A model generated the notes under the pieces. That model was not told where the DNA came from. It saw only the letters and a list, made by a program, of their open reading frames with translations, and made no database searches. Both the position numbers and the translations under genes were made by a program. Positions 2,087 through 53,717 of a DNA stretch of 64,000 nucleotides are shown one piece after another; positions within the stretch are counted from its first letter, which is position 1; each line of letters starts with the position of its first letter. Source of the stretch: Balamuthia mandrillaris (taxonomy: Eukaryota > Discosea > Longamoebia > Balamuthiidae); NCBI GenBank assembly GCA_031835245.1, contig JAVKOQ010000221.1:21328-85327 (forward strand), read 5' to 3'.

Positions 2087-3501
2087 TTTTTTTTTTTTTT
2101 TTTAGGCAGCGGGGAGCCATTGCCCAAGGCCTTGGTACACGCACTGCCCAGATTGCTGCAGAGGCTATTGTCAAGTCTACCTTGTCATATGGACTATGTA
2201 TGACAGAGCTTTCCAAATCATGGTGGAAGAAGATCGAAGCTGTGTGGAATGAGACAGCAAGAAGCGTATTGCAAGTTCATCGAAGGACTGTGGCGGGGGT
2301 TTGTAGAGCAGAATTGGGCTGGTTGACCATGTTGGCAAAATCACCAACACTTATCTCAAGACTCCTCATGTTGGATCCGTCCCGGACCCTCAGCTCTTCT
2401 TTCTTTTATATCCTCCCATCCTTCCTTTCTCCTCTTTCCCTTTTCTCTCGGTGTACTTTGAAGCAACGTCGGAGATTCACTCTCGTTGTCCTTCCTCTAT
2501 TCTCTTGAATACACTTCTTGTCTCGTCACCGACTCTTTTATTCCTAAGGTTGGATTCAACCAACAACCATCAAGGCCTACTGTGAGTTGGAAAGACAAGC
2601 AGTAATTCATCATGCTGAGAGGCAAGATGGCCACTTTGAGCTACTTGAAGAGGTAAGCCAAGCAAGTGAAGAGGAAGGGGAGAAGAATGAAGGTGAGGGA
2701 GGTGACAGGACGACTGTTGTTGAAAAGAAAGCCAAGAGGATGAGGACCTTAACTCGAGTAGCCAAGGTGGAGTATGCAGCTGAAGGAGAAAGAGGAACAA
2801 GAGCATGGCTATGGCATAACTTCTTGACAAATGGAAGATGTTTGGTTGGACAACAACGGAGCTTAGTGATTACCAACCCAAGGAAAGAACGTTTGATGAA
2901 TGCTATTCGTTGTGATGGACTGCCCATTGGAAAAAAGTGGGGAGCCATTCAGCAGTCTGAGGAGGATAGCAAGTGCCCTGCATGTGATGCTGAGGAAGAA
3001 ACAGCGGAACACTTCCTGTTAAGGTGTCCTAACCTTTGGGAAGATCGCTTTAGAATCTGGAGTGTGGACAATGGAAATGAAGAACAAGTCAGAAAGCTGA
3101 TTATAGAAGACTGTACAACAAAGCTCCTGTCAAGTGGAAAGAAATGTAACAGAGCTCAAGAGATGGAACAATGTAAGCAAAGTTGTAAACGAGTCTGGAG
3201 ATTATGGGCAGCAAGAGCAAGTTGGAAGCATGGAAGTTCTTCTGCATTTTATCAATCTTTGGAAGTAATGTAATAGCAAGGAAAAGAGAAGAAAGGAAAG
3301 GGAAAGAAAAGGATAGCTAGATGATACAAAGTTGGTCTGAAATCTCATTCAACACCTTTCACTTGTGAATTGAGTAACAATTGGGAAGGCATTGAGGATG
3401 AGGGAGTAAGAGAAGTAAGAGTACACTATGTATGTACAATGCTTACTTTTTATGTATAGATTGGTGTTGCTCTCAGAGCAAATAAACTTTTATTACTACT
3501 A
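2087..3501 (+). mobile_element. Non-LTR retrotransposon, 5'-truncated copy B
   Basis: This is a 5'-truncated copy of the same family as copy A. It encodes the end of the reverse transcriptase thumb region (from about 2104), a charged linker, and an intact C-terminal zinc motif (CPACDAEEETAEHFLLRCP, 2977-3033), ending in a stop near 3272. A 236-bp LTR-like element interrupts it at 2330-2565. The 3' end has an AATAAA-like signal followed by a (TAC)n tail. The sequence CTACTTCTG plus T run occurs on both sides (from 2071 and from 3502), which fits a target-site duplication made by target-primed reverse transcription. The long T tract (2080-2103) blurs the left boundary. Confidence 0.75.
2330..2565 (+). 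mobile_element. LTR-like element, family B (solo LTR), in retrotransposon copy B
   Basis: This 236-bp insertion has TGTTGG...CCAACA ends and is flanked by the 4-bp duplication ACCA (2326-2329 and 2566-2569). Copy A keeps the unoccupied site near 266. It contains a TTTTATATCC stretch that could be a TATA-like box and a pyrimidine-rich middle. A near-identical copy sits at 7014-7247. No coding capacity is seen. Confidence 0.75.
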
Positions 3502-37510: not shown

Positions 37511-39348
37511 CATCTCTTTTTACTTCCCCACCTTCTTCTTTGTTGTGTCTCTAATATTGATTGTGGTATTTAGCTCCAAAGGTGGAGGCCACTTCGCAGT
37601 GGCGTTCAACAAGAACTGAGAGTTCTCGTCCACCTTCGCTTGTGCGGACGTTAAATGAGGTGGCCGCTCAAATAGAAGGAGGCAGAATATTATATGAACA
37701 AGATAGACGGTTGCAAGGGGGGAGGTCCGGCAGCAGCCCTCCTCCGGCTACCATCGCTGTTCGTCGCTATCACAAAAGAAGTGGCTCGATGGACCACACC
37801 CAAAACAACATGGGGTTAAATGGAAGGCACAAACATGTGGCTAGTGCCCCGGTTGTGGAAGAGAGACCACACGCAGTCCCGGTACGAGGAAATATGGGAC
37901 GACCGCTACCTGTGCCAATGCAACCCAGACCCGAGGGTCCCATTGCTCCTCCCTCTCGCCAACAATCTGTTGCTTTTGAAGACCCCTCTGGTTTGAGCCG
38001 TGCTCTTGAATGTGGTCTCGAGCACAGCCCTCTCTTCAGCCAGTTGGCCAAGTATAGTCAGCTACAGCAGGAACAACTGGAACCGGAAGAAAGCGAAGAA
38101 GATGGTCATGACAACGGGGAGGATGAGGATGAAGAAGAAGAAGAAGAAGAAGAAGAAGAAGAAGAAGAACAAGAAGAGGAAGACGCAGATGACGAAAGTA
38201 ACGAAGCAGACGGGTTTAAAACTGCAATACATTTGGAAACGGACAAAATCCAATCAAGCAAGGAATCGGGTATTACGAAGACTACGCTGATCAAACCCTC
38301 TGCCGCTGCCCTGCAAGGTTAGTCTATTTGGCAATTAGAAAGCAGGTCTTTTTACTCACCTTACATACTTGCCAAATCCAGTCGTGATTGCCCATAACGG
38401 AACATCTGGTAGTCCTCCCGGTTGTGTGGTGAAAGCCTCCTCCCCAACAAGCAGCCAAAGGACTTTGCGAAAAGGAAACAAGAAAGTCCCTCCAACCCCG
38501 CTTAAAGCTCGACCTGTGGACCCTCCAGCACCTCCTTCCCTCACCGACGAAATGCAAGGACAGGGTGGCCATCTGCCTATTACCAACTCTCCACACGGTG
38601 GTGGTTCCGTAGGGGTTTGTTGCTACAACACCATATCTCATTTATTGTTTTGCATAACCCTATGCCTCTCTTTCGCTACAATAGAAACCAATTCCACCTC
38701 CTCGCCGAAGAACTAATCTCGTGATGGACGCAATCAATGCTGCAAGCCACGAATTTGACAGCAAGCGAAGCGCCCTTAAACATGCCATTCCATCTCCCAC
38801 TGGTTTGCCCTCCCTTGCTCTCCTCTACTCTTTTGCTGGGAAAATGAAGCGCCCTATCGTAGTATTCACCTAATCTTTAACTTTCTGTCCTCCTTTTACA
38901 TTCCGCAGGGGTTCGGCCAGATGCTCCCCCTGCTCCCCCTTCCTTGACAGAAACGAACGACTTTGCTTCTTCTTCCCCTTCCTCCTCTTTTGCTGCTGCC
39001 TCTTCTATACCTTCATCTTCACCACACGTTCCTCCGCCGCCACCTACAGTGTGGACACAACCAAATGGTTCTTTGTCCACCACTTCATCATCGTACCCAC
39101 CACGTCTACCCGGGGCACCTCTGTCCCCCGAAGATGAGAGAAGGATAGAAAAAGCTAACAGGCATCGTGGCTTAGTGCTTCATACCCCCGAGTCATGGAG
39201 TCAGCAACCGAGAAAGGCAAGAGGGACCACTGGGGTCGATTTTGATGCCATAAACAATCGTCGCTTGTTTTGGCAAAACATGTCAGCCATGAATTCTGAG
39301 GCGAACGGCGGCACAACCACACAAGCGGCCGCCAACGATAGTTGTTGA
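37172..39348 (+). CDS. Proline-rich, acidic protein (possible SH3 ligand)
   Basis: About six exons with consistent frames. I do not recognise the family. The start MADREEVKAVSESDSEDVG is acidic. A basic piece VARKKKKDVLRHLF follows, then RTLNEVAAQIEGG and LYEQDRRLQGG, Pro/Arg stretches such as PLPVPMQPRPEGPIAPPS, a long poly-Glu run (GAA repeats about 38130-38170), and repeated PxxP modules (KVPPTPLKARPVDPPAPPS, KPIPPPRRRTNL, RPDAPPAPPS) that match SH3-binding consensus. The C-terminus has a helical ESWSQQPRKARGTTGVDFDA segment. An intron carries (TC)n then (GC)n (about 37457-37512). The three SH3 domains of the gene at 62.5-64 kb are possible partners by motif, but nothing links them directly. 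Confidence 0.7.
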
Positions 39349-52378: not shown

Positions 52379-53147
52379 ATGGAAGCGCACGACCAACGGC
52401 TTGCGACGGCCACCTTTGCTACTGGCGTAAGGCTGGCTTCGCCCTTCTTCTTTCCTTCCTTCATTCTAACCCTTTTTCCACCTTGTTCTTATTCTATCTT
52501 TGTTGCAACAAACAAACCAGTGATTTTGGACCCCTGATGCCATATTCGGCATCAGGGAAGGCGTGATACGCACCCGCGTTGGCTATTTCGGTGGTAAAAT
52601 GGCCGATCCCTCCTACGACGACCTCTGTGTGGGCCGCTGCGACCACACGGAGAGCCTCCAGCTGGACTACGACCCCCAGGAGGTGAGCTACGAGGAGCTG
52701 CTGGAGATCTTTTGGGAGAGCCACTCCCCGAGCCGGCCCGCCGGCTGCGCGCAGTACATGTCTGCCATCTTCTACCACGACAAGGCTCAGAAGAAGGCAG
52801 CCAAGAGCTCCAAGACAGCCGTGGAGAAGAAGTACGGCAAGCCCCTCCACACCAAGCTTCTTCCTGCCAAGGGCACCTTTTGGGTGGCCGAGGACTATCA
52901 CCAGAAGTTCTACTTGAGGAGACACAACGGAGGCGCCCTGCTGGACATGTTGGGCTTCACGTCCGAGGCGGAGCTGAGGGATTCCCCAGTGGCCACCAAG
53001 CTCAACGCTTACGTTCAAAACAAGGGCTCTCTGGCGCAGTTGCAACGGGAAATGGGCTCGTTTAATCTTTCCAATGAGGCCAGGGACTACCTCCTTGACT
53101 TTGTGCAGCGCATGGAGGCAACCAAGTGTAAGTTGCAGGCTGCGTAA
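52379..53147 (+). CDS. msrA: Peptide methionine sulfoxide reductase MsrA, selenoprotein
   Basis: It reduces methionine-S-sulfoxide in proteins. Exon 1 (52379-52426) reads MEAHDQRLATATFATG. A GT-AG intron (52427-52520) follows. Exon 2 opens TGA TTT TGG, so the joined motif is ATFATG-U-FW, the MsrA active site GCFW with TGA at the catalytic Cys position. Reading on, DAIFGIREGVIRTRVGYFGG, DPSYDDLC, YDPQEVSYEELLEIFWESHS, QYMSAIF and TFWVAEDYHQKFYLRRH are all classic MsrA. A Cys near the end (KCKLQAA) could be the resolving residue. A SECIS-like structure lies in the 3' UTR, as needed to decode TGA as selenocysteine. The frame downstream of TGA has no other stop for 207 codons; the predicted protein is 224 residues. 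Without the TGA readthrough, the only later start would be a GTG at 52563, which would lack the active site. Exon 2 is more G+C-rich than neighbouring genes. Confidence 0.88.
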
Positions 53148-53717
53148 AGGCTAGCTTGTAGAGAGACAACTGACACGAGGGTGGAACTTTACGCCTTGGA
53201 AGAGGCAATGAAGTGAAGTGGAGAAAACAAACCATGTTTGTATCCATTTGACTGAGACGAGCAACAGAACACAAGGACCTTCCTATCACCACCAGCTTAG
53301 GTCCTTATCTTCCTCGCTCTTCCTTGTGTGTATCATTCCCGTTCTCTCACAAGTGTTGGTTGCATCAGTAATAATCTCTCCTCTTGTTTTCTTTTTTTTC
53401 TTTGTGGAGTGAAGAAAAATTGAACTTTTTGCGTTTTTGGCAAAGGGGAGTGTAGAGCGCCGACGATAGGGGTCAGTGGTGAGAAATATCAATTAAGTAG
53501 ACAGACCAAGCCCTTTGTAATATTGGCAACCCGCGCTGCTCTCACCACCCGTTGACACCCCTTGTGCCATGGGTTTGGATTGTTTTTTTTTCGTTAAGAA
53601 AAAAAACATGCCCATGTGAGGTAACACTTCGATGTGGTTTGCCGCTAATGCGGCGCTACAAAGAAGCAAGGTTGTAGGCAACCCACTATTTATTGCTCCG
53701 GTAAGAAAGGCCCGCCA
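53148..53717. other. MsrA 3' UTR and intergenic region between convergent genes
   Basis: About 570 bp between the MsrA stop and the stop of the minus-strand FMC1 gene. The first part is MsrA 3' UTR with the SECIS element. Further on there are pyrimidine- and T-rich stretches (53380-53402, 53581-53591). No additional gene is seen. Confidence 0.5.
53194..53276 (+). promoter_or_regulatory. SECIS element (form 2-like) in MsrA 3' UTR
   Basis: ATGA at 53208-53211 is followed by AGTGAAGTGGA (53212-53222). This pairs with TCCATTTGACT (53243-53253) as an 11-position helix with one mismatch and one G-U, and GA follows directly (53254-53255) to complete the ATGA/GA non-Watson-Crick quartet. The apical part starts GAAA (unpaired As where the SECIS consensus requires AA) and then forms a mini-stem, ACAAAC with GTTTGT, as in form 2 SECIS. 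An outer stem CCTTG/CAAGG (53194-53198 with 53272-53276) can close helix I. It lies 61 nt after the MsrA stop codon. Pairing was done by eye. Confidence 0.82.

Follow-up and report, generated by a model that had tools for sequence, protein, structure and literature searches.

Balamuthia mandrillaris, an amoebozoan of the Centramoebida, is a soil amoeba able to infect the brain. The stretch of its DNA analysed here, called the window, comprises 64,000 nucleotides (contig C220:21328-85327) of a genome assembly of 64,792,369 bases in 775 contigs. The question raised by this locus is whether a TGA codon, lying within a frame that resembles methionine-S-sulfoxide reductase (MsrA), specifies selenocysteine (Sec) or ends translation. 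The evidence points to the former, and a probability of roughly 95% is assigned to the reading that the window gene encodes a selenoprotein MsrA. Far from this gene, at 2587-3273, the window also contains an open reading frame with a CPACDAEEETAEHFLLRCP motif, which resembles the zinc-binding terminus of proteins encoded by non-LTR retroelements.

An earlier note on this DNA had proposed a splice joining 52426 to 52521, and these coordinates proved exact, delimiting a GT-AG intron and leaving the frame open through exon 2 (Table 1). The predicted spliced product has 224 amino acids, and the TGA falls precisely on its catalytic residue (ATFATG-U-FW). The downstream frame, described earlier as uninterrupted and MsrA-like, is indeed both, and the product matches the Pfam family PMSR (PF01625) with 148.6 bits (2.2e-43, cut-off 23.7). 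Moreover, 30 distinct solved MsrA sequences match the product, the best of them being 4lwj, which covers query residues 5-214 of 224. In the solved chains the TGA codon aligns with the Cys of the GCFW motif, in agreement with the active-site position claimed for it. Cys residues of the window protein are located at positions 52, 56, 92 and 219.

Table 1. Features of the MsrA gene in the window (positions counted from the first letter of the window).
Feature	Position	Strand	Remarks
MsrA exon 1 (coding part)	52379..52426	+	ATG at 52379-52381, 16 codons, MEAHDQRLATATFATG; 47/48 bases the same in copy 2
MsrA intron	52427..52520	+	94 nt, GTAAGG...AACCAG, ends directly before TGA; borders and position the same in copy 2; splicing predicted
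TGA, predicted Sec codon, residue 17	52521..52523	+	on the catalytic Cys of solved MsrA chains; kept in copy 2
MsrA exon 2	52521..53147	+	Sec codon, 207 sense codons, TAA at 53145-53147; MsrA domain and C-terminal part
SECIS-like element, 3'UTR of MsrA	53208..53257	+	own pattern scan and folding; kept in copy 2

A second copy of the gene, located on contig C234 (L002), shares its start, TGA, reading frame, stop and intron position with the window gene, its intron being 103 nt long versus 94 nt in the window. Aligned over 675 columns, the two coding sequences agree in 647, and a single gap accounts for 9 of the other columns, whereas similarity is far lower across the 300 nt upstream (identity in 151 of 343 columns). 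The recurrence of the TGA, the frame and the intron position on C234 indicates that the TGA in MsrA is more than chance. Indications of hyperploidy were described for another published Balamuthia assembly (PMC4582570), and thus the two copies may be allele-like. When 9 nt inserted in copy 1 close to the C terminus are left out of the comparison, 17 of 221 codons differ (dS 0.051, dN 0.023), and the dN/dS of 0.45 over these 17 codons is only a weak sign of constraint.

The strongest competing explanation, though a quite improbable one, is a decayed Cys-MsrA, in which the TGA is a true stop and the remnant is either a pseudogene or a truncated protein whose start lies further downstream. The public protein of copy 2, P0001, which is the best protein match to the window MsrA (96% identity across 55% of the query), begins at position 96 of the complete frame, past the active site, as might be expected of such a remnant, and the dN/dS value lies only moderately below 1. 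Nevertheless, both copies retain the exon before the TGA, the residues separating the TGA from the following Met, and the frame in its entirety, and the first in-frame ATG after the TGA in the window reads ATT in copy 2, which speaks against a shorter protein begun there. A dead gene would also leave unexplained the SECIS-like element and the Sec genes described below. The public annotation of the Balamuthia Sec-MsrA is wrong, because P0001 starts after the active site.

Replacement of the TGA by a Cys codon through another splice is less probable still. The intron ends directly before the TGA, hence the choice of splice site matters; the intron borders, however, are identical in both copies. 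Alternative splices were enumerated from the ATG at 52379 (GT/GC...AG, introns of at least 30 nt, donors to 52600, acceptors to 52700), and all 68 open-frame options avoiding the TGA need an acceptor at 52555 or beyond and lose the FW, in agreement with the 12 of them that were inspected. The sole AG between the TGA and 52555 is that at 52554-52555, so every such splice also removes the FW that follows the catalytic residue.

The strongest local evidence for Sec-MsrA is a SECIS-like element beginning 61 nt past the MsrA stop codon, which the earlier note did not contain. It opens with an ATGA core, followed by 10 pairs that include one G-G mismatch, then by GAAAA, the mini-stem CAAAC/GTTTG and a return strand before GA, a layout that appears type-2-like. 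The elements of the two MsrA copies differ solely by a 7-nt indel in the apical loop, and the z values of their folds are -3.37 and -2.64, equalled by 0 and 2 of 200 shuffles, respectively. With a scanner that was corrected after its first form had missed the window element, which weakens the statistics, the element ranks first of 22 pattern matches on both window strands (-11.4 kcal/mol). The runner-up, on the minus strand at 38641, reaches -11.3, and therefore the score alone does not single out the MsrA element. Scanning of 10 single-strand dinucleotide shuffles gave no match at or below -11, one at or below -9 and nine at or below -7.

The first form of the scanner required the TGA outside the helix; apart from a weaker register in copy 2, it found SPS2 only. 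The same pattern occurs downstream of TrxR (-12.4), SPS2 (-17.1) and a SelW-like gene (-7.9, with a 3' strand in the corrected scan that differs from the strand read by eye), and for SPS2 the element is present in all three copies, one of them with a one-base deletion. The Rfam model RF00031 detected no SECIS in the window, nor in the MsrA 3'UTR at E up to 5. Its search of the genome likewise returned no SECIS, but the model was silent in the controls too and is hence uninformative.

Beyond the locus itself, the Sec-insertion gene set in Balamuthia is nearly complete. The search suggested earlier, for tRNA-Sec, SBP2, EFSec and SPS, found all of them, together with SepSecS. A total lack of Sec-insertion genes, which the earlier note named as refuting its reading, is therefore not the case here. 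A tRNA-Sec lies at C111:21854-21939 (70.9 bits, cut-off 47), being the only one of six matches above the cut-off, and its anticodon loop carries TCA (UCA anticodon); ARAGORN did not report a tRNA-Sec. SepSecS is represented on C38 by five exon matches to PF05889. SPS2 occurs on C37, C403 and C438 (L020-L027) with an in-frame TGA in all three copies, each reading LLTRFAELKG-TGA, G, intron, GCKVPQ, which gives the Sec site KG-U-GCKVPQ. The EFSec exons on C95 match eEFSec (7zjw, 5izk) with 296.7 bits, compared with 127.6 for a SelB chain and 95.7 for EF-Tu, and a later exon matches the euk_SelB_III domain (71.7 bits). Exons on C138 match SBP2 with 96.3 bits, the next protein reaching 29.8, and a similar gene is found on C165. 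The PSTK candidate, on C13, has TIGR03575 as its best family, with 77.8 bits from joined partial exons against a whole-protein cut-off of 382.

Several other matches in these searches were set aside. The top selB matches were recognised by their motifs as eEF1A and mitochondrial EF-Tu, the true EFSec being a lower-ranked split match. KTI12-family matches were rejected as PSTK, as their motifs resemble those of KTI12 itself. Two loci (L053/L054) were rejected as SBP2 because their motifs look RPP38-like.

Further genes with in-frame TGA at Sec sites were found in the same genome. A large TrxR at C208:68879-69016 on the minus strand (L076) ends in KKGC-TGA-G-TAA (GC-U-G) and is followed by a SECIS-like element, while a SelW-like gene at C336:23736-23858 on the minus strand (L084) reads CTS-TGA-GY and has a SECIS-like 3' region. 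The segment C84:18236-18340, also on the minus strand, may be another copy of the latter gene. Among the 10 glutathione peroxidase matches, none has an internal TGA and two have TAA. A match with one TGA inside it (L074/L075) was rejected as a selenoprotein, since it belongs to a glutathione-reductase-like gene ending in TGA. An intron adjoins the Sec codon in two of the four genes, located after TGA-G in SPS2 and directly before the TGA in MsrA. Such introns may matter for mRNA surveillance.

These frames also bear on the genetic code. The glutathione-reductase-like gene ends in TGA in both of its copies, and TGA closes one of the 8 gene ends read, that of an RPP38-like gene, the other 7 being TAA or TAG; both gene names are our presumption. 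As TGA still terminates ordinary genes, the Balamuthia code is standard and TGA is recoded locally. That TGA would be a sense codon for Cys or Trp genome-wide can thus be dismissed as extremely improbable: several frames here do contain TGA, and the mycoplasma contig C3 does read it as Trp, but the in-frame TGAs found in the host occupy known Sec sites with SECIS-like elements downstream, TGA terminates the genes just named, and the tRNA-Sec has a TCA anticodon.

Contig C3 (569,775 bases; L001, L013, L014, L032, L072, L073) is of bacterial origin although part of the amoeba's assembly, and probably represents a culture contaminant or associate. Its signs are a mycoplasma-like MsrA, frames with in-frame TGA and bacterial-looking tRNAs. 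The MsrA frame on it (L001), containing two TGA codons, was rejected as a further Sec-MsrA because it is mycoplasmal, being 82% identical to Mycoplasma sp. 1654_15. P0121, a 99% identical protein, comes from a metagenome set.

If the window gene is a Sec-MsrA, its product would arise as follows. Sec would be made on its tRNA by PSTK and SepSecS, with selenophosphate provided by SPS2, itself a selenoprotein. UGA would then be read as Sec, guided by the signal in the RNA tail, and the protein would contain selenium. In the predicted enzyme, U17 would attack methionine-S-sulfoxide with release of methionine, and the oxidised selenium would be re-reduced by thioredoxin or other thiols. The route from UGA, SECIS and the machinery to Sec follows what is established for Sec insertion in eukaryotes, and the catalytic steps are those established for MsrA. 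Close to its C terminus, copy 1 carries the in-frame insertion of 9 nt that adds Cys 219; copy 2 lacks both. The absence of Cys 219 from copy 2 indicates that this residue is not generally required as a resolving thiol, and Cys 52, 56 and 92 are the remaining candidates for this role.

The closest solved structures, 4lwj, 4u66 and 7c13, are taken by us to be the MsrA of Clostridium oremlandii, a natural bacterial selenoprotein. They align almost end to end (query residues 5-214), including the C-terminal part beyond PMSR. In contrast to the amoeba protein with its four Cys residues, the aligned part of the bacterial enzyme has no Cys besides the catalytic one; bacterial Sec insertion, moreover, relies on another SECIS type. 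Within the Balamuthia genome, Cys-MsrA genes are found on C135 (two), C35 and C630 (L004, L005, L006, L007). They belong to the PMSR family like the Sec-MsrA, but all four loci have a GCFW active site; an in-frame TAG occurs in one of the two genes on C135.

Among known systems, the occurrence of Sec-MsrA in green algae and some other protists, stated in the earlier note, is borne out by relevant passages of two papers. One lists Sec-MsrA for Ostreococcus and the diatom Thalassiosira, with Chlamydomonas MsrA as the query (PMC2375036), and the other names MsrA as one of the selenoproteins widespread in algae (PMC7539508). As far as these passages go, the algal and diatom proteins resemble that of Balamuthia in having Sec at the catalytic position and a eukaryotic SECIS-based system. 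The Balamuthia protein, unlike them, is amoebozoan; in a tree with no identified algal row, it branches with the environmental proteins P0002 and P0004.

Within Amoebozoa, the corresponding passage on Dictyostelium gives five selenoproteins, with MsrA not among them (PMC2375036). SPS2 is reported from Amoebozoa in part of another paper (PMC4561486). The sections of PMC8038987 on Acanthamoeba describe TrxR-L as a predicted selenoprotein with SECIS, and an MsrA of 163 aa, with a fungal best match, that was assayed after expression in E. coli. The excerpts thus describe the same Sec system, with SPS2 common to Balamuthia and Dictyostelium and a large Sec-TrxR to Balamuthia and Acanthamoeba. The suggestion that this Sec-MsrA would be notable in its lineage therefore needs dividing: Sec use as such was already known in Amoebozoa (Dictyostelium, Acanthamoeba), whereas Sec-MsrA there seems unreported. 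Searches of the open-licence literature turned up no description of Sec-MsrA from Balamuthia or any other amoebozoan. Term searches met no words starting with "selen" in the main text of the Balamuthia papers PMC10471605 and PMC8569187, and yielded no mention of selenoproteins in Balamuthia, or of Sec-MsrA in amoebozoans, in PMC11459619, PMC9083255, PMC5376697, PMC3281104, PMC6155587 and PMC9252135.

The relatives of the window protein add an evolutionary aspect. In an alignment of the query with the best 120 of 472 homologous proteins, the catalytic column contains Cys in 26 rows, Trp in 17, Thr in one and a gap in 76, beside the Sec of the query. Trp at the catalytic position of MsrA makes no chemical sense; it probably reflects TGA translated by gene callers under another code. 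Three further proteins (P0012, P0014, P0023) begin just past the catalytic site. A tree was built from 66 rows, namely the query plus 65 of those 120 relatives; 18 of its 63 inner branches are open, and no algal row was identified. It places the query together with P0002 and P0004 (95/82), both with Trp at the site, and P0012, P0014, P0023 and P0037 join next (98/92), while animal and Desulfosarcina rows stand apart. The tree thus supports a grouping of the query with these six rows, which are presumably eukaryotic and Sec-using. Old inheritance and transfer of Sec-MsrA fit this tree equally. A tentative proposal, which we would not favour over its alternatives, is that Balamuthia and the environmental organisms behind P0002, P0004 and the four adjoining rows form a separate old eukaryotic Sec-MsrA lineage, lost or replaced by Cys forms in the other studied amoebozoans, with methionine repair being partly selenium-dependent.

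For Balamuthia, described in part of PMC8569187 as having few validated drug targets, the analysis adds four selenoprotein gene families (MsrA, SPS2, TrxR and SelW-like) along with the Sec-insertion genes, and extends Sec-MsrA to Amoebozoa. The presence of Sec-MsrA and Cys-MsrA genes in one genome provides a natural Sec/Cys pair within one cell. If the tentative proposal is true, part of methionine repair in this amoeba would hinge on selenium supply.
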